Source: Subtercola sp. PAMC28395 (lineage in GTDB: Bacteria; Actinomycetota; Actinomycetes; Actinomycetales; Microbacteriaceae). From it: a stretch of DNA of 64,000 bases. The stretch is from the NCBI RefSeq assembly GCF_018889995.1, contig NZ_CP076547.1, forward strand, positions 124,001 through 188,000, written 5' to 3'. The position numbers were made by a program, and so were the translations under genes. Positions 39,765-52,018 of the stretch are shown here, in pieces. The notes under the pieces were generated by a model. It did no database searches, was not told where the DNA came from, and saw nothing but the letters and a program-made list of their open reading frames with translations. How positions within the stretch are numbered: the stretch's first letter is position 1; each line of letters starts with the position of its first letter.

Positions 39765-40331
39765 TCAGACCGCCCTCTCGACGCACTCGTCGCCCGGAAA
39801 TGCGTCGAACATTCTCGACGCAAAGTCTTCGGTGTCGAGAGTACCAAGACCGAGCAGCGTCTCGGTTCTCAGAATTCCCGGGAGCGTGGGCACCCTGTCG
39901 AGAATCAGTTCACGCAGATGCGCCTGGTCACTGATTCGAAATCGTGCAGCAAGGTCATACCTGCCCGTGACGATGGTGAGCTGTTCGAGCTCGACCATGC
40001 CGGCGAGTGCGTCGAAGACCTCCTGGCGATCACAACCAGGCTTGAGCGTCACGTTGACCAGCGCAACGACACCCAACCCGAGCTTGTTCCAGTCGATCGA
40101 GACGGAGTACTGCCTGACGATGCCGGTGCGCTCGAAACGCGCGAGCCGTTCAGCGACAGCCGGAGGCGACATGCCGACCGAACGGCTCAATGCCCGCTGC
40201 GACTGCCGCGAATCCTTTGCGAGCTCCCTCAAGAGGGAGAGATCCTTGTCATCGAGTTCGACTTCGGGCTGTTCGAAGCGAGCCCCGACGTACGACGAGA
40301 ACGGACTGCGTTTTGCTTTTCTGGGCAACAT
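39765..40331 (-). CDS. Lrp/AsnC family transcriptional regulator
   Basis: A 188-residue regulator: N-terminal winged helix-turn-helix (LDDKDLSLLRELAKDSRQSQRALSRSVGMSPPAVAERLARFERTGIV) and a C-terminal RAM ligand domain (VVALVNVTLKPGCDRQEVFDALAGMVELEQLTIVTGRYDL). A 25-residue tail precedes the HTH. Such proteins sense amino acids. GAGGAA lies 8 nt before the ATG. It stands at the edge of the methylthioribose/sulfur island and is divergent from the flavoprotein gene, so local control of that island is plausible but unproven. Confidence 0.93.
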   Translation of the reverse strand: MLPRKAKRSPFSSYVGARFEQPEVELDDKDLSLLRELAKDSRQSQRALSRSVGMSPPAVAERLARFERTGIVRQYSVSIDWNKLGLGVVALVNVTLKPGCDRQEVFDALAGMVELEQLTIVTGRYDLAARFRISDQAHLRELILDRVPTLPGILRTETLLGLGTLDTEDFASRMFDAFPGDECVERAV

Positions 40332-40366
40332 CGTTGCATTTCCTCACGTGACCCCCACGATGACTG

Positions 40367-40422
40367 GATATGAGTATATCTCGCTTAGCTCTTGAAAACT
40401 CACCAGCGCGAAAACTCGCCAG
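40367..40422. promoter_or_regulatory. Operator-like repeats between lrp and the flavoprotein gene
   Basis: The inverted repeat GATAT-GAGT-ATATC (40367-40380) is followed by two direct copies of GAAAACTC(A/G)CCAG at 40394-40406 and 40410-40422, 16 bp apart. AT-rich spaced repeats near an Lrp gene suggest autoregulation. No site consensus is available to confirm this. Confidence 0.45.
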
Positions 40423-40587
40423 AGTGGAGGCCTGCACAGAACCTGCACGCGTCTTCTCTGAGGTACACGGTCACTGAAAGACTCGCCGACGCACAAAGGC
40501 ACCCGGACCGGGCATAGTGGTGAGTAGACGTGGTGGTACTACGACCGCCGCACGACAAACGACACCTCACGCTGGAGACAGATCATC

Positions 40588-41817
40588 GTGCCCCTGCCGC
40601 CTCACGCCCCTCGTTCGTTCACCACTCCCCTGCCGGTGATCACCAGCGCAACAGCAGCAGGGGAAGCTGGCGTTCGCTTGGCCGAACAGTTCGCAGACGT
40701 CGCTGCGGAACGGGACCGCGAGGGCACGGCGCCGTTCGGCGAGGTCGCCGCACTACGCGAGACCGGTCTGCTTCCTGCCCTGGTGCCATCCGGGCTCGGT
40801 GGTGGCGGGCTCGACTGGACTTCCGTCTTCGTCGCCCTGCGCCCGATCATCAGGGCAGATGCCGGGCTCGGCCACGTGTTCGCGTATCACTTCGTCAATT
40901 CGTGGCGGCTTGCACTCAACGAAGACTCCGCAGCCATCACGTCTCTGCAGCGCGGCCTCGCAGCCAACCACTGGTTCTGGGGCGGGGCGGGCAATCCCCG
41001 CGATGCGAACCTCGCCCTCACCCCCGTCGAGGGTGGTTTCACGGTTTCTGGCCGCAAGTTCTTCGCGACCGGAGCACAGGTGTCCGACCGCATCACCGCC
41101 AGCGGCACTCGGGTCGACACCGGGGAGAAGCTGTCGATCGTGATCGACGCGACCCAGCAGGGAGTGACACACCACGACGACTGGAACAGCATCGGGCAGC
41201 GCCTCTCGGCCTCCGGCTCGGTCTCGTTCACCGATGCCTTCGTAGCAACGGCCCACGTCCTCGGATTCGGCGGACAGGAGGGGCCTCGCTACCGCCCGTA
41301 CTCCTCGCTGTCGATCCTTCTCTTCCAGCTCGCCCTCGACCACGTGCACGTCGGCCTCGCCGAGGGTGCCCTGGCCGCAGCATCCGACTACGTCACCTCC
41401 ACAACACGGCCCTGGTCCACCAGCGGAGTCGAACACGCCACAGATGACCCACACATTCGCGCGCTGTTCGGTGAGCTCCAGGCACAGACACGGGCAGCGG
41501 ATGCCCTGACCTGGCAAGCGACGGAGACCTTCGTCGAGGCTGCCGAGCGCGGCTGGCAACTGACTGATGCCCAACGCGGTGAAGCCGCCGTGGAGATCGC
41601 CGCTGCAAAGGTCTTCACCACAGAAGTCGCGTTGACCGTGTCGTCTCGCATCTTCGAACTGACGGGAGCCCGAGCGACAGCCTCGAGCTATGCCTTCGAC
41701 AGGTTCTGGCGGAACGCACGCACTATCACCCTGCACGACCCGGTTGCCTACAAAGCCCAGGAGGTCGGTGACCACGGCCTCGTGGGCACCTTCCCGGCGC
41801 CGAGCGGCTACAGCTGA
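40588..41817 (+). CDS. DszC/SfnB-like acyl-CoA dehydrogenase-fold flavoprotein
   Basis: A 409-residue acyl-CoA dehydrogenase-fold protein. Segments such as ALRETGLLPALVPSGLGGGGLDW, LGHVFAYHFVNSWRLAL, FWGGAGNPRDANLALTPVEGGFTVSGRKFFATGAQVSD and the C-terminal FDRFWRNARTITLHDPVAYKAQEVGDH resemble the SfnB/DszC/SoxC group of FMNH2-dependent monooxygenases, which oxidise organosulfur compounds. The catalytic Glu of true acyl-CoA dehydrogenases is not evident. The start is a GTG at 40588, with GGAG 11 nt upstream. It is convergent with mtnD and adjoins methionine salvage genes, which fits a sulfur role, but the substrate is unknown. Confidence 0.78.
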   Translation: MPLPPHAPRSFTTPLPVITSATAAGEAGVRLAEQFADVAAERDREGTAPFGEVAALRETGLLPALVPSGLGGGGLDWTSVFVALRPIIRADAGLGHVFAYHFVNSWRLALNEDSAAITSLQRGLAANHWFWGGAGNPRDANLALTPVEGGFTVSGRKFFATGAQVSDRITASGTRVDTGEKLSIVIDATQQGVTHHDDWNSIGQRLSASGSVSFTDAFVATAHVLGFGGQEGPRYRPYSSLSILLFQLALDHVHVGLAEGALAAASDYVTSTTRPWSTSGVEHATDDPHIRALFGELQAQTRAADALTWQATETFVEAAERGWQLTDAQRGEAAVEIAAAKVFTTEVALTVSSRIFELTGARATASSYAFDRFWRNARTITLHDPVAYKAQEVGDHGLVGTFPAPSGYS

Positions 41818-41840
41818 GTCAGACTGGCCTTCGACCGAGC

Positions 41841-42416
41841 TCAGACCGAGACAGCGGCCAACTCGTCGTACGTGGCGAAGTGCGTGGCGACGTCACTGCC
41901 GGTGAAGTTGCCGACCCAGCCGTCGTCGTCGTGGAAGAAGCGCACCGAAACGTAACTCGGTGTCGTGCCCATGTCGAACCAGTGTGTCGTGTTGGCCGGC
42001 ACTGAGAGCAGGTCGCCCTCTTCACAGAACACCGCGTGCACCTTGCCGTTGACGTTCAGGTAGAAGACCCCGCTGCCACGCGCGAAGAAGCGGTCTTCGT
42101 CGTCATCGTGGCGGTGCTCGCTCAAGAACTTCTGTCGCGCCGTCTCGGCGGTCTGTCGGTAGGCGTCCGAATCCTCAGGCACGATCGACACAACGTCGAC
42201 GAGGCTGTAGCCCTGAGCAGCATTCACGGCGGCGATCTCGTCTGCGTAGGCGGCAAGCACCTCGTCCTGTGTCGGGTTCTCCGACAGCTCCTTGAGCTCC
42301 CACCGGCTGAACCGGGCACCGACACCCGCGAGGATCCCTCGGATCGTATCGGCATCGCGGGTCTGGATTTCAGGGGTCGAAGGGTCGGTGGTGCTCCACA
42401 CGGTCAGCAGCGTCAT
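41841..42416 (-). CDS. mtnD: Acireductone dioxygenase
   Basis: A 191-residue cupin that oxidises acireductone to 4-methylthio-2-oxobutanoate and formate, the last carbon-breaking step before methionine is rebuilt. The metal ligands align with the Klebsiella enzyme: H101, H103, E107 (SEHRHDDDEDRFF) and H145 (NTTHWFDMG). GVRFERW-like GVGARFSRWE and the final GWVGNFTGSDVA also match. I start at the ATG at 42416 (MTLLTVWS), since the longer frame is not conserved. It is divergent from the sugar ABC importer across a 220-bp gap, so it is likely co-regulated with it. Confidence 0.95.
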   Translation of the reverse strand: MTLLTVWSTTDPSTPEIQTRDADTIRGILAGVGARFSRWELKELSENPTQDEVLAAYADEIAAVNAAQGYSLVDVVSIVPEDSDAYRQTAETARQKFLSEHRHDDDEDRFFARGSGVFYLNVNGKVHAVFCEEGDLLSVPANTTHWFDMGTTPSYVSVRFFHDDDGWVGNFTGSDVATHFATYDELAAVSV

Positions 42417-42573
42417 GTACTCATCGTAAACGCGTCCTCCAGACGGCCAACTCGAATTGTTCATGAAAGTAACAGAGCGAAACACAATTGGCAGAAGCCA
42501 CCGATTACGCCCTTGAATGGTGGAGAACACAGCAGCCGCCGGTTCCCTTCACCAGAGAGCCCGCGTGCGTTCT

Positions 42574-42591
42574 GCCTGACTCACCTCAGGC
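42574..42591. promoter_or_regulatory. Inverted repeat upstream of the methylthioribose-linked importer
   Basis: GCCTGA-CTCACC-TCAGGC has perfect 6-bp arms and a 6-bp spacer, 45 bp before the binding-protein start. It lies in the 220-bp divergent gap between mtnD and the importer (42417-42636). It may be an operator or part of a leader. I found no known SAM riboswitch pattern in the gap. Confidence 0.4.
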
Positions 42592-42636
42592 GTCGTCTCT
42601 CAATCCACTCCCCCACACCTTTCAAGGAGAGCCTTC

Positions 42637-43730
42637 ATGGCCATTTCCCGTCGAGCCCCGATACTGGTCGTTGCCGCAGCGACCCTGCTCGCGCTGACCG
42701 CCTGCTCGCAGTCCGGGACGAGCTCCAGCACCTCTGCGGGAGCGTCCACTCCCGCTGCCACCGCTTCTGCTCCCCTGCCCAGCCCGTTCAACGGCGCACC
42801 TGTGAAGGTCGCCCTGGTCCGCCAGAGCGGCGCAGGCGACTTCTTCGAGGCCTGGGGTGCTGGCGCGACGGCGCAGGCCAAGGCCGCCAACATCGAACTC
42901 ACCGTCACGGATGCCCGCAACGACAACGCGAAGCAGGCAAGCGACCTCGAACAGGCCATCGCCTCGAAGCCCGCCGCCATCATCGTCGACCACGGGCAGA
43001 CGGACACGCTCCAGCCGTTGATCACCGAGGCCGTCGCCGCCAAGATCCCGGTGGTCACCTACGACCTCGCCCTCACGGACGCGACCGGCGTCATCACCAC
43101 CAGCCAGTCCGATGCCTCGATGGCTCAGGGCGTTCTCGATCAACTGGTGAAAGACGTCGGAGACGGTGCGAAGGTCGGCTACGTCTCCGCCACCGGTTTC
43201 GCTCCTCTCGACGCCCGCGCGAAGGTCTGGGACCAGGTCGTCGCGGCCCACAAGCTCAACGTCGTCTTCTCGACCGGCAAGGTCACCGAGTCGACCGCGA
43301 CCGACAACATCCCCCTCGTCGACGCCGCTCTCAAGCAGAACCCCGACGTTCAGGCGATCTTCGCCCCGTACGATGAAATCACCAAGGGAACGGTCCAGGC
43401 CGTCATCCAGAACAACCTGCAGTCGAAGGTGAAGGTCTACGGCATCGACATCTCGAACGCCGACATCCAGGTCATCACCGCAGACGGCAGTCCCTGGGTC
43501 GCCACCTCGGCCACCGACCCGGCCGCCGTCGGTGCCGGCGTCATCCGCACCCTGGCTCTATCGCTCGCCGGCCAGCTGAAGGACACCAGCGAACAGTTCC
43601 CCGCTGTCACGATCACTCAGCAGTTCCTGGCCGACAACAAGGTCACCAACGTGACCCAGCTCCGCGTTGCCGAACCGAAGCTCAAGCTCGACACGACCGT
43701 CGTTGCAGATTGGCTCCCCGCGGTCTCCGG

Positions 43731-43734
<4 letters not shown>
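42637..43734 (+). CDS. Sugar-type ABC substrate-binding lipoprotein (possible methylthioribose binder)
   Basis: A 365-residue protein with a signal peptide ending in lipobox LTAC (Cys about residue 23), a Ser/Thr/Ala linker and a Peripla_BP_4 (ribose/autoinducer-binding type) fold: VKVALVRQSGAGDFFEAWGAGATAQAKAANIELTVTDAR, SDLEQAIASKPAAIIVDHG and IFAPYDEITKGTVQAV. Proteins of this class bind pentoses and their relatives. AAGGAGA lies 7 nt before the ATG. It is first in the operon with an ATPase, a permease and mtnK, which makes methylthioribose or a similar 5-substituted ribose the likely ligand. This is inference from context. Confidence 0.9.
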
Positions 43735-45298
<1,564 letters not shown>

Positions 45299-45302
<4 letters not shown>

Positions 45303-46351
45303 CCAGCGCGACCCTGATCAGAGTGCGAAAGAGCAGCGCCGGGGAGCAGTTCGCCGCCTTCGTGGTCAAGTGGGGCTTCGTCGGCGTGACCATCGGTCTC
45401 GTCGCGTTCTTCGCGATAAGCGAACCGAGTTTTCGAACCGTCGACAACCTCTTCGGAATGCTCAAATTCATCGCGCCCACCGCGATCGCCGGCCTCGGTG
45501 TGATGCTGGCGATGACCGTCGGCGGGATCGATCTCTCGGTGGGCGCATCGGCAGGTTTCGCCGTGTCGATCGCCGCCTGGACGATGGTGGTCGCCAACCA
45601 GGTCGGTGGCGTAGCGGTGACTGTGGTTCTCATCTGCGGTCTGTTGATCGGCGCACTCAATGCCTTTCTGATCGTGGTGGCGCGCATCCCCGACCTGCTG
45701 GCAACCCTCACGACGATGTTCGTGATCGTCGGGCTCAAGTTGATCATCGTCGACGGCAAATCCATCTCCTCGCAGATGACGCTCGCCAATGGCCAGACGG
45801 CCCAGGGCAAGTTCACTGCCGACTTCCTCTGGCTCGACCGCGGCAGCATCGGGCCGGTTCCGGTACCCGTCATCCTGTTCTTCCTCATCACAGTGCTGCT
45901 GTGGTTCCTGCTCGAACGAACCCGCTGGGGGCGCGCACTCTTCGCCGTCGGAACGAACTCAGAGGCTGCACGTCTGGCGGGCATCCGGGTTCAGTGGTAC
46001 CGCACGTTCGCCTACATGGGGTGCGGGCTGCTCGCCTCTGTTGCGGGGCTTCTTCTTGCTGCTCGCATCGGCCAGGGCGACGTCACAGCAGGCAATTCAC
46101 TGTTGCTCGACGCGGTCGCCGTCGCGCTCGTCGGCGTCTCGGTTCTCGGCATCGGCCGGCCGAACGCCTGGGGCACGGCCCTCGGCGCGATTCTCATCGC
46201 GGTCATGGTCACGGGCTTCACCATGCTGGGCCTGCCGTACTACTTCCAGGATTTCGGTAAAGGCGTGGTGTTGCTGATCGCGCTCCTGTTCAGCTTCACC
46301 TTCTCGAGACGGCGTACAGTCGTCACGGCAGGCTCCACCACCTCGAACTGA
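45299..46351 (+). CDS. Ribose-type ABC permease
   Basis: A 350-residue RbsC-like permease with eight to ten hydrophobic segments. GVMLAMTVGGIDLSVGASAGFAVSIAA is the family's conserved GGIDLSVG loop, and RTRWGRALFAVGTNSEAARLAGI is the cytoplasmic coupling motif (G-N-EAARLSGI). The end VLLIALLFSFTFSRRR is typical. It would homodimerise to form the pore for the sugar. It overlaps the ATPase gene by 4 bp and lies 11 bp before mtnK, so uptake and phosphorylation are encoded together. Confidence 0.94.
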
Positions 46352-46362
46352 AGACAGCGCAG

Positions 46363-47589
46363 ATGATCGACTTCTCAATCCTGACCGCCGACACGGTCGT
46401 CCCCTACCTGTCCAGTCGAGCTGCGCTCGCCGGGCACATCGATGCCTCCAGCGTGACGTCTGTGAGGGAGGTGGGCGATGGCAACCTCAACCTCGTCTTC
46501 ATCGTCGGAGACGCACGCGGCGCTTCACTCGTTCTCAAGCAGTCTCTGCCCCATGTTCGCACCGACCCGTCATGGCCGATGACAAGGGAACGCTCCGCTC
46601 GCGAAGCGACCGTGCTCGCCCATCACTTCGAAGCCGACGCGAGCCATGTGCCAGCACTGTACGACTTCGACGACGCCAACTACATCCTCGCCATCGAGGA
46701 CCTGTCAGACCATGCGGTGTGGCGAAACGAACTCAATTCCGGTCGAGTGCACGCCTACGCTGCGGATGATCTGGGGCAGTATGCGGCCCGTGCTGCGTTC
46801 TCGACCTCACCGGTGGGCCTGTCTCCGCTCGAGCACAAGCTGCTGGTCGCCCGCGCAATCAACCCCGAACTCTGCGAGATCACCGAAGACCTGGTCTTCA
46901 CCGAACCCTACATCGAGCACGAGCACAATGCCGTGCTCCCGGCGAACGAACCCGATGTCCGTGCGATCCAGGGCGATAGAGCACTCGTCCAGGAGATCGG
47001 CCTGGCCAAACTGCGATTCATGACGGTGGCGCAATCGCTCATCCATGGCGACCTGCACACGGGCTCCGTCTTCGTTCGCGCGGCAACCGCGACCACTCCC
47101 GCATCGGTGCGGGCCTTCGACAGCGAGTTCGGTTTCGTCGGCCCCACGGGGTTCGACCTCGGGGCACTCTGGGCCAACTTCGTGATCGCTGCAGCCCGCG
47201 CAGAAGCACTCGGCGACAGCGAGCGTGCAGCCCTCATCCTGACCCTGCCGTCGCGCCTCTGGGCGAGTTTCGAAGCGCAGTACCGCGCGCTCTGGCCGGC
47301 CAGGCTCGACCCACGGGTGTGGAATGACGACGTTCTCGATGCACTCCTGGCGGGCATCCTCGACGACGCCATCGTCTTCGCCGGCGCAAAGTGCATTCGC
47401 CGCATCATCGGGTTCGCCAAAGCGAGCGACATCGAGTCGCTGGAGCCACCTCTGCGGGAGGGCGCTGCACGGGGTGTTCTGCGAGCCGGGCGCGCTCTGG
47501 CGCTCGCCCACGCCTCGCGCAGGCCAGCCGACGACCTCTCGGCCGAGACAGCACTGATTCTGAAGAGCGCAGCAACGCCGGCAGAGTGA
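46363..47589 (+). CDS. mtnK: S-methyl-5-thioribose kinase-like protein 1
   Basis: A 408-residue APH-fold kinase that phosphorylates methylthioribose at C1. The nucleotide loop is REVGDGNLNLVFIV (residues 35-48; DGNLN-VF matches Bacillus MtnK), hinge IEDLSDH, EHEHNAVL, catalytic HGDLHTGSVFV (228-238) and metal-binding FDSEFGFVGPTGFDLG (D253, E255). The usual DPEF reads DSEF here, a small deviation. It is the last gene of the importer operon. A second homologue lies at 49022-50296 on the other strand. Confidence 0.92.
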   Translation: MIDFSILTADTVVPYLSSRAALAGHIDASSVTSVREVGDGNLNLVFIVGDARGASLVLKQSLPHVRTDPSWPMTRERSAREATVLAHHFEADASHVPALYDFDDANYILAIEDLSDHAVWRNELNSGRVHAYAADDLGQYAARAAFSTSPVGLSPLEHKLLVARAINPELCEITEDLVFTEPYIEHEHNAVLPANEPDVRAIQGDRALVQEIGLAKLRFMTVAQSLIHGDLHTGSVFVRAATATTPASVRAFDSEFGFVGPTGFDLGALWANFVIAAARAEALGDSERAALILTLPSRLWASFEAQYRALWPARLDPRVWNDDVLDALLAGILDDAIVFAGAKCIRRIIGFAKASDIESLEPPLREGAARGVLRAGRALALAHASRRPADDLSAETALILKSAATPAE

Positions 47590-47616
47590 GGCACCTCGCC
47601 GGCCGACGGCGCGAAG

Positions 47617-48285
47617 CTACGCCCTCGTCGCCAACGCGATCTGCAGCAGCGCCTCGGTGAGTTCGAGGTGCCATCGCGCCTGCCGGAGATCCCTGCCCCA
47701 GGCATAGATACCGTGGTCTGCCACGATCAGCGCCGGTACCTCCGCGGTCGATTCCGTCGCCGGAAGGTAGACCCTATCGAAGTCGTCGCCGAGAATCGCC
47801 ATGTCCTGGTGGTTTCTGACGACGGGAATGGTGACTCGCTCATGGTGAGCACTGTGCCCGATTCCTTTGAGCATCTCCAGGTCGTGCAGCTCGACCCCGT
47901 GCGGCCACTGGTATCCGGCTCGAACGGCAGCGAGGGCGTGAACGTGGATGACCGCGCCGGCTCCCGTCACCGCAGCAATACGCGCGTGCAGCCCCGCTTC
48001 GGCGGAGGGCTGTCGAAACGGCAACCCCGCCTCAGCCACCCAGTCTCCGACTCCATCGACCACAACGACGTCGGTCGCGCTCAGTTCGCCCTTGTCCAGG
48101 CCAGAAGCCGTCACGGCCAGACGCAGTGGATTCCGCGCGAGGGTCATCGACAGATTGCCAGCGGTGCCGGGCATCCACCCGCGGGCCGCGAAACGGGCCG
48201 ACTCCGTCGCCAGCGCCGCCCCGGCCGACAACACCGATTCCGAGGTCACCGCGCCATCTCCACCTGCACGTGCAGTGTCATTCAC
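47617..48285 (-). CDS. mtnB: Methylthioribulose-1-phosphate dehydratase
   Basis: A 222-residue class II aldolase-fold enzyme that dehydrates 5-methylthioribulose 1-phosphate. The zinc ligands are H114 and H116 (AVIHVHALAAV) and H191 (ADHGIYAWG). GWMPGTAGNLSMTL near residue 37 and PSAEAGLH (E96) also match MtnB. The GTG start at 48285 overlaps the mtnC stop (GTGA). It is last in the mtnA-mtnK2-mtnC-mtnB operon and convergent with the first mtnK. Confidence 0.94.
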   Translation of the reverse strand: MNDTARAGGDGAVTSESVLSAGAALATESARFAARGWMPGTAGNLSMTLARNPLRLAVTASGLDKGELSATDVVVVDGVGDWVAEAGLPFRQPSAEAGLHARIAAVTGAGAVIHVHALAAVRAGYQWPHGVELHDLEMLKGIGHSAHHERVTIPVVRNHQDMAILGDDFDRVYLPATESTAEVPALIVADHGIYAWGRDLRQARWHLELTEALLQIALATRA

Positions 48286-49025
48286 GGTGCACTCACCTCG
48301 ACGCCGTTGAACGACGAGACAACGGATGCTCCATCGAAGTCGGCTCCGAAGAACGGTTCGCCCTGACGAGCGAACGCCACGACTTGCCACCCGGCTTCGG
48401 CGGCCGCTGCCACCTCACCCGGATTGTCGGTGAAGAACACCAGTTCCGACCCGGGTGCGCCCAACGCCTTGGCGATGGTGTCGTACGAGGACGCGAGCTT
48501 CTTCGGCCCGGCATTCACCGTGTCGAAGTAGTCGGTGATGAGACCGGTCAGGTCGCCAGCCGGCGAGTGACGGAACCACGGTACCTGTGACGCGATCGAG
48601 CCTGAGGAGAACACAGCGAGTTCGACCCCCGCATCGTGCCAACGGCGCAGCTTCGGAATGACATCGTCGAAGAAGTGCGAGCTGATCTCGGAGCGGGCGA
48701 ATCCTTCAGCCCAGATCTGGCCCTGGATCGTCTTCAACGGAGTCGCTTTGACGTCGTCGGCCATCCACTGGTGCAGCACCGCGACGACATCGCTCGTTGA
48801 GGCGCCAGCGGCAAGCCGGGCGTCCTGGATCACCTGCGCCCGCGCCTCAGCGATCGCGGTGTCTGAGGCGTGATCGTCGAGCCAACCGGCCAGGCGAGGG
48901 CGGGCATAGTCGTAGAGGTCGCCGAGGATGAAACCGGCCGCGCTCGTGGTGCCCTCCAGATCGAGCACGACGAATCTGGCCCGCACGGAGAGAGAGGCTG
49001 AGAACGGGGTTGTGTCTGGTGTCAC
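48282..49025 (-). CDS. mtnC: Acireductone synthase (enolase-phosphatase E1)
   Basis: A 247-residue HAD-family enzyme that enolises and dephosphorylates diketo-5-methylthiopentyl phosphate to acireductone, the MtnD substrate. Motif I is VVLDLEGTTS (D22, E24; DxEGTT is specific to MtnC), motif II AVFSSGS, motif III GPKKLASSY and motif IV VFFTDNPGEVAAAAEAGW. The helical cap includes IWAEGFARSEISSHFFDDV. The GTG start overlaps the preceding mtnK2 stop, and its end overlaps mtnB. Because this form is bifunctional, separate MtnW and MtnX are not needed. Confidence 0.95.
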   Translation of the reverse strand: MTPDTTPFSASLSVRARFVVLDLEGTTSAAGFILGDLYDYARPRLAGWLDDHASDTAIAEARAQVIQDARLAAGASTSDVVAVLHQWMADDVKATPLKTIQGQIWAEGFARSEISSHFFDDVIPKLRRWHDAGVELAVFSSGSIASQVPWFRHSPAGDLTGLITDYFDTVNAGPKKLASSYDTIAKALGAPGSELVFFTDNPGEVAAAAEAGWQVVAFARQGEPFFGADFDGASVVSSFNGVEVSAP

Positions 49026-50296
49026 GCGGGGAGATCCTTCGTGCTCGGTGAGGCGGGGTGGGATACGGAAAGCAAAGCGGACGTGCGTGGAGGACTCAGC
49101 ACTGAAAGCAGGTGCCGCAGAGCGGTGTCGCAGAGCTCGATCGAGGCCGCTTCACACTGTGCGCTCCGAAGGGTGTCGATGTCTGCGGCGTGCGAGTACC
49201 CGACGGCCCTCCGCATCATCTCGACGCCGGCGAAGCCCCAGGCCTCTCGTTCGATGACGGGTAGGAGCGGGTCGCCGCTCCACAGTGTGGCGAACGCGAC
49301 GCGACTTCGAGTGACGGCCTCGAGGCGGGAGGCAGCTGCAGAGTGGTCTCCGACCGCGCGTGCGGCGATCGCTGCGATCTCCATGTTCGCCCAGAAGAGA
49401 CCGAGGTCGAGCCCGACCGGCCCGACGAAGCTGAATTCTGGGTCGAAGATCTTCGTCACCTGGGAGCCGCCCCGGTGGCCGACCATGACAGACCCGGTAT
49501 GCAGGTCTCCGTGCACGAGCCCCTGCTTCGCCGTCTCGAACGTCGATCGCACGATCGCGACCGCGCGCTGGACGTGTTCGTCGACATAGAGGTCCCGCAC
49601 GCGTGAATCCAGCACAGGATGCCAGTGGTTGTGTTCATGCGCGCGATAGGGCTCGTCGAGCACGACATCGACGGTCAGCTGGCAGAGTTCAGGGTTCGCT
49701 GCCGATTCGACCAGCCGTTCGAATTCCGCCTCTCCGAGCCCCGCGCGGCTCGTGGACTTCGACAGTTCACCGACGAACCGGCCCACGACCTCGCCGACAT
49801 CGCCCCAGTCGTACAGCGGATCTCGAGCTGTCGATGACACGGGGCCGGAATCGGGGCGCCCTTCGCCATTCGATTCGGCGGGAGCACGGAGTGCCAACTG
49901 GTCCACCAGCTCATCACGCAACACGACGAGGTCGGAGAGGTCTTCCATCACGAGGATGTGCCGCTGTTCGTCGAAGTGCACAATGGTCGGAATGGACTCC
50001 GGGACCCGGTCGGCCAGACGCTCATAGGTGCGAGCTTCTGAAGTGATGCGGCCCGGGTCTATCGGCCATCCGGGGCCTGCAACCTGAACCCAGGGAGGCG
50101 CCTGTTTGACGGCAAGACTCCCCCGCGGTCCGCGCGCCAGGAATACCCGATTCATGTTGCCGGCGGTCACCTCGACCACGGTCACCTGCGACTCGTGGTG
50201 CGCGACGAGAGAGAGAAGCCCTGAATCTCTCAGATAGGAGGAGACATCACTGCTGGTTTCGAGCAGCCCGTACCCTGCCGACGCGTACGCGGTCAT
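49022..50296 (-). CDS. S-methyl-5-thioribose kinase-like protein 2
   Basis: A 424-residue APH-fold kinase of the MtnK family. The loop reads VEVTAGNMNRVFLA (residues 41-54), where MtnK1 has GDGNLNLVF. The hinge is VMEDLSDL, with EHNHWHPV, the catalytic HGDLHTGSVMV (263-273) and canonical FDPEFSFVGPVGLDLG (D285, E287). A poorly conserved insert of about 25 residues (135-160) separates the lobes. The ATG at 50296 overlaps the mtnA stop (ATGA). The two kinases are clearly diverged from each other, so they may differ in substrate. One could act on 5-deoxyribose or another 5-substituted ribose. Confidence 0.88.
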   Translation of the reverse strand: MTAYASAGYGLLETSSDVSSYLRDSGLLSLVAHHESQVTVVEVTAGNMNRVFLARGPRGSLAVKQAPPWVQVAGPGWPIDPGRITSEARTYERLADRVPESIPTIVHFDEQRHILVMEDLSDLVVLRDELVDQLALRAPAESNGEGRPDSGPVSSTARDPLYDWGDVGEVVGRFVGELSKSTSRAGLGEAEFERLVESAANPELCQLTVDVVLDEPYRAHEHNHWHPVLDSRVRDLYVDEHVQRAVAIVRSTFETAKQGLVHGDLHTGSVMVGHRGGSQVTKIFDPEFSFVGPVGLDLGLFWANMEIAAIAARAVGDHSAAASRLEAVTRSRVAFATLWSGDPLLPVIEREAWGFAGVEMMRRAVGYSHAADIDTLRSAQCEAASIELCDTALRHLLSVLSPPRTSALLSVSHPASPSTKDLPA

Positions 50297-51363
50297 GCTG
50301 CGCCGTTGGGGTCGACCTCGGCCCGGGCATCCGACCAGTAGCGGTGCACCTCCTGGGGTGAGTAGGCACCCCTGTCGGTGACGATCTTCGACACGAACCG
50401 CCCGGGTGTCACATCGAAGGCGGGGTACCACGCCTCGGTTACGAGGCCGGATGCCGTACGGCGCCCCAGCGTGTGAAGTACCTCCGCTGGGTCACGCTCC
50501 TCGATGACGATGTCGGCTGCCGTCTGGGCGGCCTGATCCGGAGCCTGAACGAGCGCAAAGAACGGCACGTCGAAGGCCGACGCCGCAATCGCCAGACCGA
50601 GCGTACCGACCTTGTTCACGACGCTGCCGTCGAGGCTCACCCGATCGGCTGCCGTCACGAGCGCGTCGATGGGGCCGATGGATGATCCCGGCGAGAGGGC
50701 AGCGGCGCCCATACCGTCGGTGATGAGGGTGACGTTCTGGCCGAGTTCCGCGAGCGTGTGAGCGGTGAGCCTCGCTCCCTGGAGGTAGGGGCGCGTCTCT
50801 GTGGCGACCCAGTCGAACGATTTGCCGGCGTCTGCCGCTGCACGCACGAGTTCGATCAGGTAGCTGTCCATCCAGCAGTGGGTGAGGATCCGCGACCCGT
50901 CAGCAAGCAACGTCGCAGTCTCTCTGCCGAGGGCGTAACTACGGGTTCGATAGTCCTGTGGCCCCGATCGTACGGCCTCGAGGGCCAATTCGACGAGGTT
51001 GCCCGTTGAATGTGCGGCGTCGACCGCGCCGAGTACATGGTTCACCGCTTCGCGCGGATGATTGTTGGTGGGCCTCGCCGAAGCCAGTGCGGCACCCGCC
51101 TGCTGCATCCGCGTCTGCGCGAGTGCCAGATCGAGCCCTGCGACCTGCAATGCGGTGATCTCCATACCCGCGTAGGCGGCGAAGAGCGGGCCGGAACTCT
51201 GGGTCACCATCTCCCGAATCGCCCGAGCAACGTCTTCTGCCGATTCGGCGACAACCCAGCTCAGGGATTCAGGAAAGACCCTGCGGTCGAGGATGTGAAC
51301 AGTCTGGCCGTGCACTCGAACCGAGTCGTCGAGCACAGGAATCGTTGTGCGGGCCGTGGCCAT
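50293..51363 (-). CDS. mtnA: Methylthioribose-1-phosphate isomerase-like protein, divergent
   Basis: A 356-residue eIF2B-alpha-like protein. It keeps the MtnA catalytic Cys (C163, ILTHCWMDSYL) and Asp (D240, TAADRVSLDGSVVNKVG), ATETRPYLQGARLTA, VTLITDGMGA and VIEERDPAEV. The hallmark RGAPAIG loop, whose Arg contacts the substrate phosphate region, is replaced by SSGPLFA (57-63), and THCNAGS by THCWMDS. So it may isomerise methylthioribose 1-phosphate with altered binding, or a related phosphate. GAGGGG lies 6 nt before the ATG. It leads the four-gene mtnA-mtnK2-mtnC-mtnB operon. Confidence 0.85.
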   Translation of the reverse strand: MATARTTIPVLDDSVRVHGQTVHILDRRVFPESLSWVVAESAEDVARAIREMVTQSSGPLFAAYAGMEITALQVAGLDLALAQTRMQQAGAALASARPTNNHPREAVNHVLGAVDAAHSTGNLVELALEAVRSGPQDYRTRSYALGRETATLLADGSRILTHCWMDSYLIELVRAAADAGKSFDWVATETRPYLQGARLTAHTLAELGQNVTLITDGMGAAALSPGSSIGPIDALVTAADRVSLDGSVVNKVGTLGLAIAASAFDVPFFALVQAPDQAAQTAADIVIEERDPAEVLHTLGRRTASGLVTEAWYPAFDVTPGRFVSKIVTDRGAYSPQEVHRYWSDARAEVDPNGAA

Positions 51364-51382
51364 GCATTTCCCCTCGTGAAGA

Positions 51383-51418
51383 AAGCCCCAGACGACTCGA
51401 TGGAGTCGTCTGGGGCTT
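51383..51418 (-). terminator. rplQ terminator hairpin
   Basis: A perfect 16-bp stem (51383-51398 with 51403-51418), loop GATG, followed on the - strand by CTTTCTTC. It starts 16 nt after the rplQ stop and ends the ribosomal-protein transcript just before the mtnA operon. Confidence 0.9.
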
Positions 51419-51433
51419 GTCGAACTGTCACAC

Positions 51434-52018
51434 CTACTTGGAGGAGTCGTCAGCCTTCTCGGCAGCGTCGGCCTCAACCTCGGCGGCAGCCTCTGAAGGC
51501 GCCTCCTCGGCTACAGGTTCGCTTGCTTCGACGGTCTCGGTCTCTTCGACCGGCACGTCGGAGGCTTCGGCTTCGGGGGCCTCAGCCTCGGGCGTCTCGA
51601 CGAGGGGCTCGACGCTGGCCGAAGCAGTCGAGGTGCGCTTGGCACGGACCTTGGGGGTCACGGGCTCGAGAACGAGCTCGATCTGCACCATCGATGCGTT
51701 GTCACCCTTACGGAAGCCGAGCTTCGTGATGCGGGTGTAGCCCCCGTCACGCTCAGCGACCAGGGGGGCGATCTCGGTGAAGAGTTCGTGCACGACGGTC
51801 TTGTCACCGATCGTGGCAAGAACGCGGCGGCGGGCGTGAAGGTCGCCCTTCTTTGCGAACGTGATGAGACGCTCGGCTACCGGGCGAAGGCGCTTGGCCT
51901 TGGTCTCGGTGGTCTTGATGCTCTTGTGGGTGAACAGGGCTGCGGCCAGGTTGGCGAGCATGAGGCGCTCGTGCGCCGGCCCACCGCCGAGACGAGGCCC
52001 TTTAGTTGGGGTTGGCAT
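51434..52018 (-). CDS. rplQ: Ribosomal protein L17 with acidic C-terminal extension
   Basis: A 194-residue protein. Residues 1-118 are standard L17 ([66 protein letters not shown]). After it a tail of about 75 residues is rich in Glu, Ala, Ser, Pro and Val and ends KADDSSK. Actinobacterial L17 often has such tails, but this one is long. It follows rpoA by 67 bp and is the last backbone gene before the island. In related genomes truA would be next. Confidence 0.97.

Follow-up and report, generated by a model that had tools for sequence, protein, structure and literature searches.

A probable 5-methylthioribose uptake and salvage island with a conserved flavin monooxygenase partner in Subtercola sp. 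PAMC28395

We analysed a 64,000-nucleotide stretch of the Subtercola sp. PAMC28395 genome (hereafter the window; contig NZ_CP076547.1, positions 124,001 to 188,000), in which the block at positions 40588–51363 is most likely, by gene content, gene order and family membership, an uptake and salvage island for 5-methylthioribose (MTR), a sulfur-bearing waste product excreted by some bacteria. The block holds the following features, numbered within the window.

40588..41817, + strand: flavin monooxygenase resembling DszC, MsuC and SfnB (Pfam/NCBIfam and PDB matches; linkage to the importer)
41841..42416, - strand: mtnD, acireductone dioxygenase (Pfam ARD, 89 bits, cut-off 27; no NCBIfam match at E 0.001)
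42469..42485, + strand: conserved operator-like element (consensus GTAAYASNNNGNMAYA), between mtnD and the importer
42637..43734, + strand: predicted MTR-binding lipoprotein, a CUT2 substrate-binding protein (Peripla_BP_4; lipobox Cys23)
43731..45302, + strand: double-ATPase subunit (two ABC_tran stretches)
45299..46351, + strand: permease of the ribose type (BPD_transp_2)
46363..47589, + strand: mtnK1, MTR kinase of the importer operon (TIGR01767, 350 bits, cut-off 275; HGDLHTG, DxE and RR motifs)
47617..48285, - strand: mtnB, methylthioribulose-1-phosphate dehydratase (TIGR03328, 160 bits, cut-off 137)
48282..49025, - strand: mtnC, enolase-phosphatase or acireductone synthase (TIGR01691, 188 bits, cut-off 128)
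49022..50296, - strand: mtnK2, second MTR kinase (TIGR01767, 252.7 bits, below the cut-off of 275; motifs of mtnK1 kept)
50293..51363, - strand: mtnA, MTR-1-phosphate isomerase (Pfam IF-2B above its cut-off; NCBIfam below)

The lipoprotein, ATPase, permease and mtnK1 genes form an importer operon on the + strand (42637–47589), joined by two 4-bp overlaps and then an 11-bp gap. Facing it on the - strand is a second operon, mtnA-mtnK2-mtnC-mtnB (51363 down to 47617), with three 4-bp overlaps given the chosen starts, while mtnD is divergent from the importer and convergent with the monooxygenase gene. Start codons are ATG for the ATPase, the permease, both mtnK genes, mtnA and mtnD, and GTG for mtnB and mtnC; for the ATPase the list of open reading frames gives TTG at 43710, and ATG at 43731 was judged likelier. 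This is the arrangement that a first-pass annotation had described, both for the importer operon with its overlaps and gap and for mtnA, the second mtnK, mtnC and mtnB on the opposite strand with mtnD divergent. The genes that it named are real, but the island starts with the monooxygenase at 40588 and not, as it had proposed, at 41841.

By sequence as well as by fold, the best solved relative of the binding protein is 4RY8, which is TLET_1677 of Thermotoga (Pseudothermotoga) lettingae, deposited under the title "5-methylthioribose transporter binding protein". The two proteins have blocks such as GFAPLDxR and SPWVAT in common, although their identity is 37–38%. The window protein is nearer to this MTR-named protein than to ribose-binding protein, and it matched nine NCBIfam models without reaching the cut-off of any (RbsB, for example, 68 of 337 bits). 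Binding protein, double ATPase and ribose-type permease stand in one operon adjoining mtnK, as in an MTR importer of the ATP-binding cassette (ABC) class (CUT2, 4RY8/MtrACB type). The importer is most likely an ABC carrier for MTR, the fold match and the conservation described below being the grounds on which we infer its substrate in Subtercola.

Importers of this kind have been described before, and the first-pass remark that a pentose-type MTR importer is not well described has to be withdrawn. The available text of PMC3228920 presents mtrACB of Bacillus cereus and enterobacteria as a probable MTR transporter that is not functionally characterised and credits its first noting, in Bacillus cereus, to Rodionov et al. 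2004 (reference 26 there). Since mtrACB is in print and a structure carries the MTR name, the window's importer belongs to an already known type. As in the window, mtrACB is a sugar-type ABC importer near mtnK and mtnA; its binding protein, however, is 29% identical to the window's, and the same text places it under the control of metboxes or an S-adenosylmethionine (SAM) riboswitch, whereas no riboswitch was found in the window. The Klebsiella binding-protein gene that adjoins mtnK (L061), read as mtrB by its position, is 84% identical over the aligned part to 5ULB, the second-best fold match of the window's binding protein. In the literature searched, the gene order of the island was not found described, the kind of importer being known, and no paper on 4RY8/Tlet_1677 was found. 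PMC6302742, in its accessible part, refers to MTR transporter experiments in its supplement, and the accessible parts of PMC2211319 and PMC10057702 held nothing decisive.

Conservation was assessed in 150 Microbacteriaceae genomes. The binding protein, counted at E 1e-20, occurs in 17 of them, and each of the 17 has an mtnK no more than 13 kb away on its contig. In 15 this mtnK follows the transporter genes on their strand; the other two, G026 and G122, have solely the mtnK2 type, at 13 and 7 kb from the binding protein. Matches to mtnK at E 1e-40 or better are present in 19 of the 150 genomes, with weak matches alone (E 2e-11 or worse) in 12 more. Two of these 19 are without a listed binding protein: G099, which is 66% complete and whose contig ends within the ATPase gene adjoining mtnK, and G009, in which no importer match was found near the kinase-like gene (L059). 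In a phylum-wide sample of 296, binding-protein matches at E 1e-40 were confined to two genomes, among them the source of the window, and mtnK, at E 1e-30, occurs in this same pair, sharing a contig with the binding protein. The linkage of importer and mtn genes, which the first-pass annotation had proposed to check in other Microbacteriaceae, is therefore found there, and together with the 4RY8 match it bears out the idea of a pentose-type MTR importer coupled to salvage.

Eighteen related loci were compared, and clade A comprises the window and eight loci (L043–L050), with mtnA, mtnB, mtnC and mtnD in 9/9. In L053, L054, L056, L057 and L058, the importer-kinase cassette occurs with a distant mtnA and a RuBisCO-like protein (by Pfam in L056 and L057, and by tblastn in L053, L054 and L058, at 56–58% to the L057 protein, which is itself below the MtnW cut-offs); mtnB, mtnC and mtnD had no match in the fetched stretches of these five loci. 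In L052 (family scans) and L055 (tblastn), the cassette is accompanied by a distant mtnA and class II aldolases. As for the remaining loci, L051 has mtnA alone, L060 is an incomplete stretch and L059 (G009) is without an importer. An importer-kinase cassette with three downstream sets (methionine salvage, RuBisCO-like and aldolase) gives a basis for renaming importers now called "ribose" or "simple-sugar". As a separate observation, the five loci with importer, mtnK, distant mtnA and RuBisCO-like protein are a possible actinobacterial RuBisCO-like MTR route. Other genes flanking clade-A loci (VIT1, M50B peptidase, Nramp, rhodanese, aminodeoxychorismate lyase-like, LuxR-type and others) were common to at most 3/8 loci at the clustering limits used and were dropped.

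For oxygen-dependent methionine salvage, MtnK, MtnA, MtnB, MtnC and MtnD are all present in the island. In the proposed mechanism, the lipoprotein would bind MTR and the ATPase-permease pair would import it; MtnK1 (or MtnK2) would then phosphorylate MTR, MtnA isomerise it and MtnB dehydrate it, and after processing by MtnC, oxidation by MtnD would yield the keto acid of methionine. The final transamination would fall to a general aminotransferase; neither mtnE nor another final aminotransferase was found in the island, and other aminotransferases can replace mtnE according to the available part of PMC3228920. The dihydroxyacetone phosphate (DHAP) shunt of E. coli ATCC 25922, an aldolase variant serving 5-deoxyribose and MTR, resembles the island in bringing mtnK, mtnA and a transporter gene together, but there an aldolase replaces mtnB, mtnC and mtnD, and a single permease gene stands in place of an ABC importer (PMC12632272, accessible sections). 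This shunt was considered for the window and rejected: the aldolase-family protein scores above the cut-off as an MtnB, and the island also has mtnC and mtnD.

The first-pass annotation had noted no 5'-methylthioadenosine (MTA) nucleosidase in the cluster and had taken this to suggest feeding on external MTR rather than recycling of internal MTA. The absence is true of the cluster, but elsewhere in the genome an open frame for an MTA/S-adenosylhomocysteine nucleosidase (mtnN) scores 108.6 bits against a cut-off of 73.8. Its absence from the island is therefore uninformative on the origin of MTR, and the preference for external feeding does not survive, as MTR made internally by MtnN could enter via the same enzymes. 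For MTA phosphorylase, which had been proposed for the same genome search, there was just one partial match (77.5 of 274.85 bits), below the cut-off and not counted. The mtnN gene overlaps a putative luxS (L001, 1075-2387, - strand).

The two MTR kinases fall into separate clades with support of 100/100 in the tree, and both contain the HGDLHTG, DxE and RR motifs. Within clade A, mtnK1 is present in 7/9 loci (missing in L043 and L049) and mtnK2 in 8/9 (missing in L050), and none of the nine loci lacks both. This pattern suggests that the two kinases can substitute for each other. The trees of the binding protein and of MtnK1 yield the same groups, with MtnK2 separate, so MtnK1 seems to travel with the importer.

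Two congeners (G007 and G090) share the gene order rpoA, rplQ, Lrp-type gene, truA, rplM. Their rplQ is separated from the Lrp-type gene by less than 0.2 kb, and in the window the entire block from monooxygenase to mtnA sits between these two genes. Neither congener has an mtnK match, nor a binding-protein match at E 1e-20. Read from these gene orders, the island is an insertion, loss in the congeners being formally possible too. Its G+C content (0.652) is close to that of the flanks (0.642 and 0.624), so composition gives no sign of a distant donor. In stretches of up to 20 kb from eight related clade-A genomes there was no match to rplQ or truA, which indicates that the block occupies other sites there. 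No tRNA was found in the window as an insertion point (ARAGORN).

The monooxygenase is part of the island, as it lies within the block that is missing from the two congeners and is linked to the importer. The protein matches the PDB entries of DszC (4doy, 3.5e-71) and of the methanesulfinate monooxygenase MsuC (6u76, 3.8e-71) equally well, and it is homologous to DszC, MsuC and SfnB over almost its entire length. It differs from DszC and SfnB, however, in being partnered with MTR genes, and it is no member of either by curated scores, being far below both cut-offs (NF043015 for DszC, 270.6 of 850 bits; TIGR04022 for SfnB, 256.3 of 430.9). Matches at E 1e-60 occur in 33/150 Microbacteriaceae genomes; the eight copies of at least 59% identity (window counted) lie, 8/8, within 5 kb of a clade-A importer, and all other copies are at most 42% identical. 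This conserved, unexplained DszC/MsuC-like partner of an MTR importer island is what is new here. A second DszC/SfnB-like gene lies in the same genome outside the window (G000:C1:215146-216348), 39% identical to the island copy. A luciferase-like partner was looked for in the island and not found; PF00296 has 24 matches in the genome, all outside the window, and none of these was assigned as a partner.

Taken together, an MTR importer with an oxygen-dependent salvage island is very probably the best explanation of the block, with substrate, flux and regulation all predicted. Several results weigh against it. Both mtnA and mtnK2 score below their curated cut-offs (for mtnA, TIGR00512 at 185 bits against 279 and NF004326 at 243 against 271). 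The MtrB-type proteins of Klebsiella and Yersinia match the window protein at 21/47 positions. The aldolase variant also serves 5-deoxyribose (PMC12632272, accessible sections), so the binding pocket may accept this sugar. Finally, in rhizobial loci with a binding protein ~39% identical to the window's (the best 80 of 553), a tblastn search at E 1e-20 found mtnK in the 8-kb flanks of 0/80, so the wider binding-protein family is not tied to mtnK. The first-pass annotation had named homologous importers mostly apart from mtn genes as a finding that would refute it; this does not hold within Microbacteriaceae but does in rhizobia.

An ordinary ribose importer standing beside mtn genes by chance would accord with the CUT2 architecture and with the annotation of relatives as simple sugar or ribose binding proteins, but we disfavour it as very improbable given the 17/17 co-localisation with mtnK, the low RbsB score and the MTR name of the closest solved chain. 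Also rather unlikely is a carrier for 5-substituted riboses in general, 5-deoxyribose and MTR alike, used chiefly for carbon or detoxification with sulfur salvage secondary: two sister cassettes do pair with mtnA and class II aldolases, the E. coli set for 5-deoxyribose and MTR (PMC12632272, as above), whereas the presence of mtnB, mtnC and mtnD throughout clade A fits a methylthio compound, a sulfur-type monooxygenase accompanies 8/9 clade-A importers and 4RY8 is named for MTR. A larger but still minor share of probability goes to an island that mainly recycles the cell's own MTA, with the importer recapturing leaked MTR, which is compatible with MTR import and salvage. The genome's mtnN favours this, as does MTR excretion in E. 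coli and its ability to leak out (PMC6302742 and PMC3228920, in their available parts); in our judgement, however, keeping a dedicated importer just to catch leaked MTR looks expensive, and the two sampled congeners lack mtnK and the island, so internal recycling by the island route is not essential in the genus.

The monooxygenase also recurs beside related importers in rhizobia. An orthologue lies in the flanks of 67 of the 80 rhizobial loci, and in Rhizobium lentis, R. ruizarguesonis and R. etli it is ~45% identical to the window protein and directly adjoins the related importer, in the company of luciferase-like genes and one annotated as SfnB. Importer and orthologue are at most 1 kb apart in at least seven plasmid records common to both sets of listed matches (30 of 328; 40 of 670). 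When mtnK was sought genome-wide in 20 genomes chosen from the 67 orthologue-bearing loci (completeness unstated), 17 had none above the cut-off, one of them with a weak match. The Rhizobium binding protein equals 4RY8 at 31/47 positions, and the Sinorhizobium meliloti binding protein encoded next to mtnK has those of Rhizobium and Methylobacterium as its sister group (100/100). As an observation in its own right, in the rhizobial clusters L063, L067, L069 and L071-L150 monooxygenases of the DszC-like, SfnB-like and luciferase-like kinds accompany an importer of the MTR type.

This linkage, a matter of gene neighbourhood, suggests an oxidative, kinase-free MTR route that is as yet unproven. 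We hold it possible, though with clear reservations, that the MTR-importer family also serves as the entry to such a route, in which the DszC/MsuC-like monooxygenase would oxidise MTR, or a spent product, at the methylthio group and so release its sulfur as an oxidised one-carbon sulfur compound. If so, most such rhizobia would use this route alone, and the window's clade would have it in addition to classical salvage; the recurrent link in actinobacteria and rhizobia makes MTR use by oxidation instead of phosphorylation testable. Many observations count against the idea. Three of the 20 chosen genomes carry mtnK above the cut-off, 13 of the 80 loci have no orthologue (four of these on incomplete stretches), and the ninth clade-A genome (G122) is without the monooxygenase at E 1e-60. 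In Shinella, an orthologue at 75% identity to that of R. lentis adjoins a different importer, and over 259 residues the binding protein of that importer has only 28% identity to the one in the window; the monooxygenase neighbouring the Methylobacterium importer is just 32% identical; by tblastn, the Bradyrhizobium stretch has the importer but neither mtnK nor the monooxygenase; and the S. meliloti stretch has mtnK and no monooxygenase. The substrate of the rhizobial importer may be another thioether sugar. An oxidative MTR route was not found in the literature searched, which left out most subscription journals.

As for regulation, no SAM riboswitch or other Rfam element was found in the window at the gathering score, or in 40300-51500 at E <=1. 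No regulator was found for the 17-bp operator-like element. It lies in the mtnD-importer gap in 9/9 members of clade A, and in leave-one-out scoring it ranks first in each of the nine scanned stretches, a result that is partly circular because the sites were first chosen by their GTAAYA core. In the window, none of the five best 17-bp sites precedes the monooxygenase or mtnA, and sites before the monooxygenase in L047 (9.7 bits) and before mtnA in L043 (8.1 bits) are at noise level. Two relatives have a further good copy as their second-best site: in L049 it scores 17.2 bits and precedes mtnA by 165 bp, and in L048 it scores 14.5 bits and precedes the monooxygenase by 76 bp.

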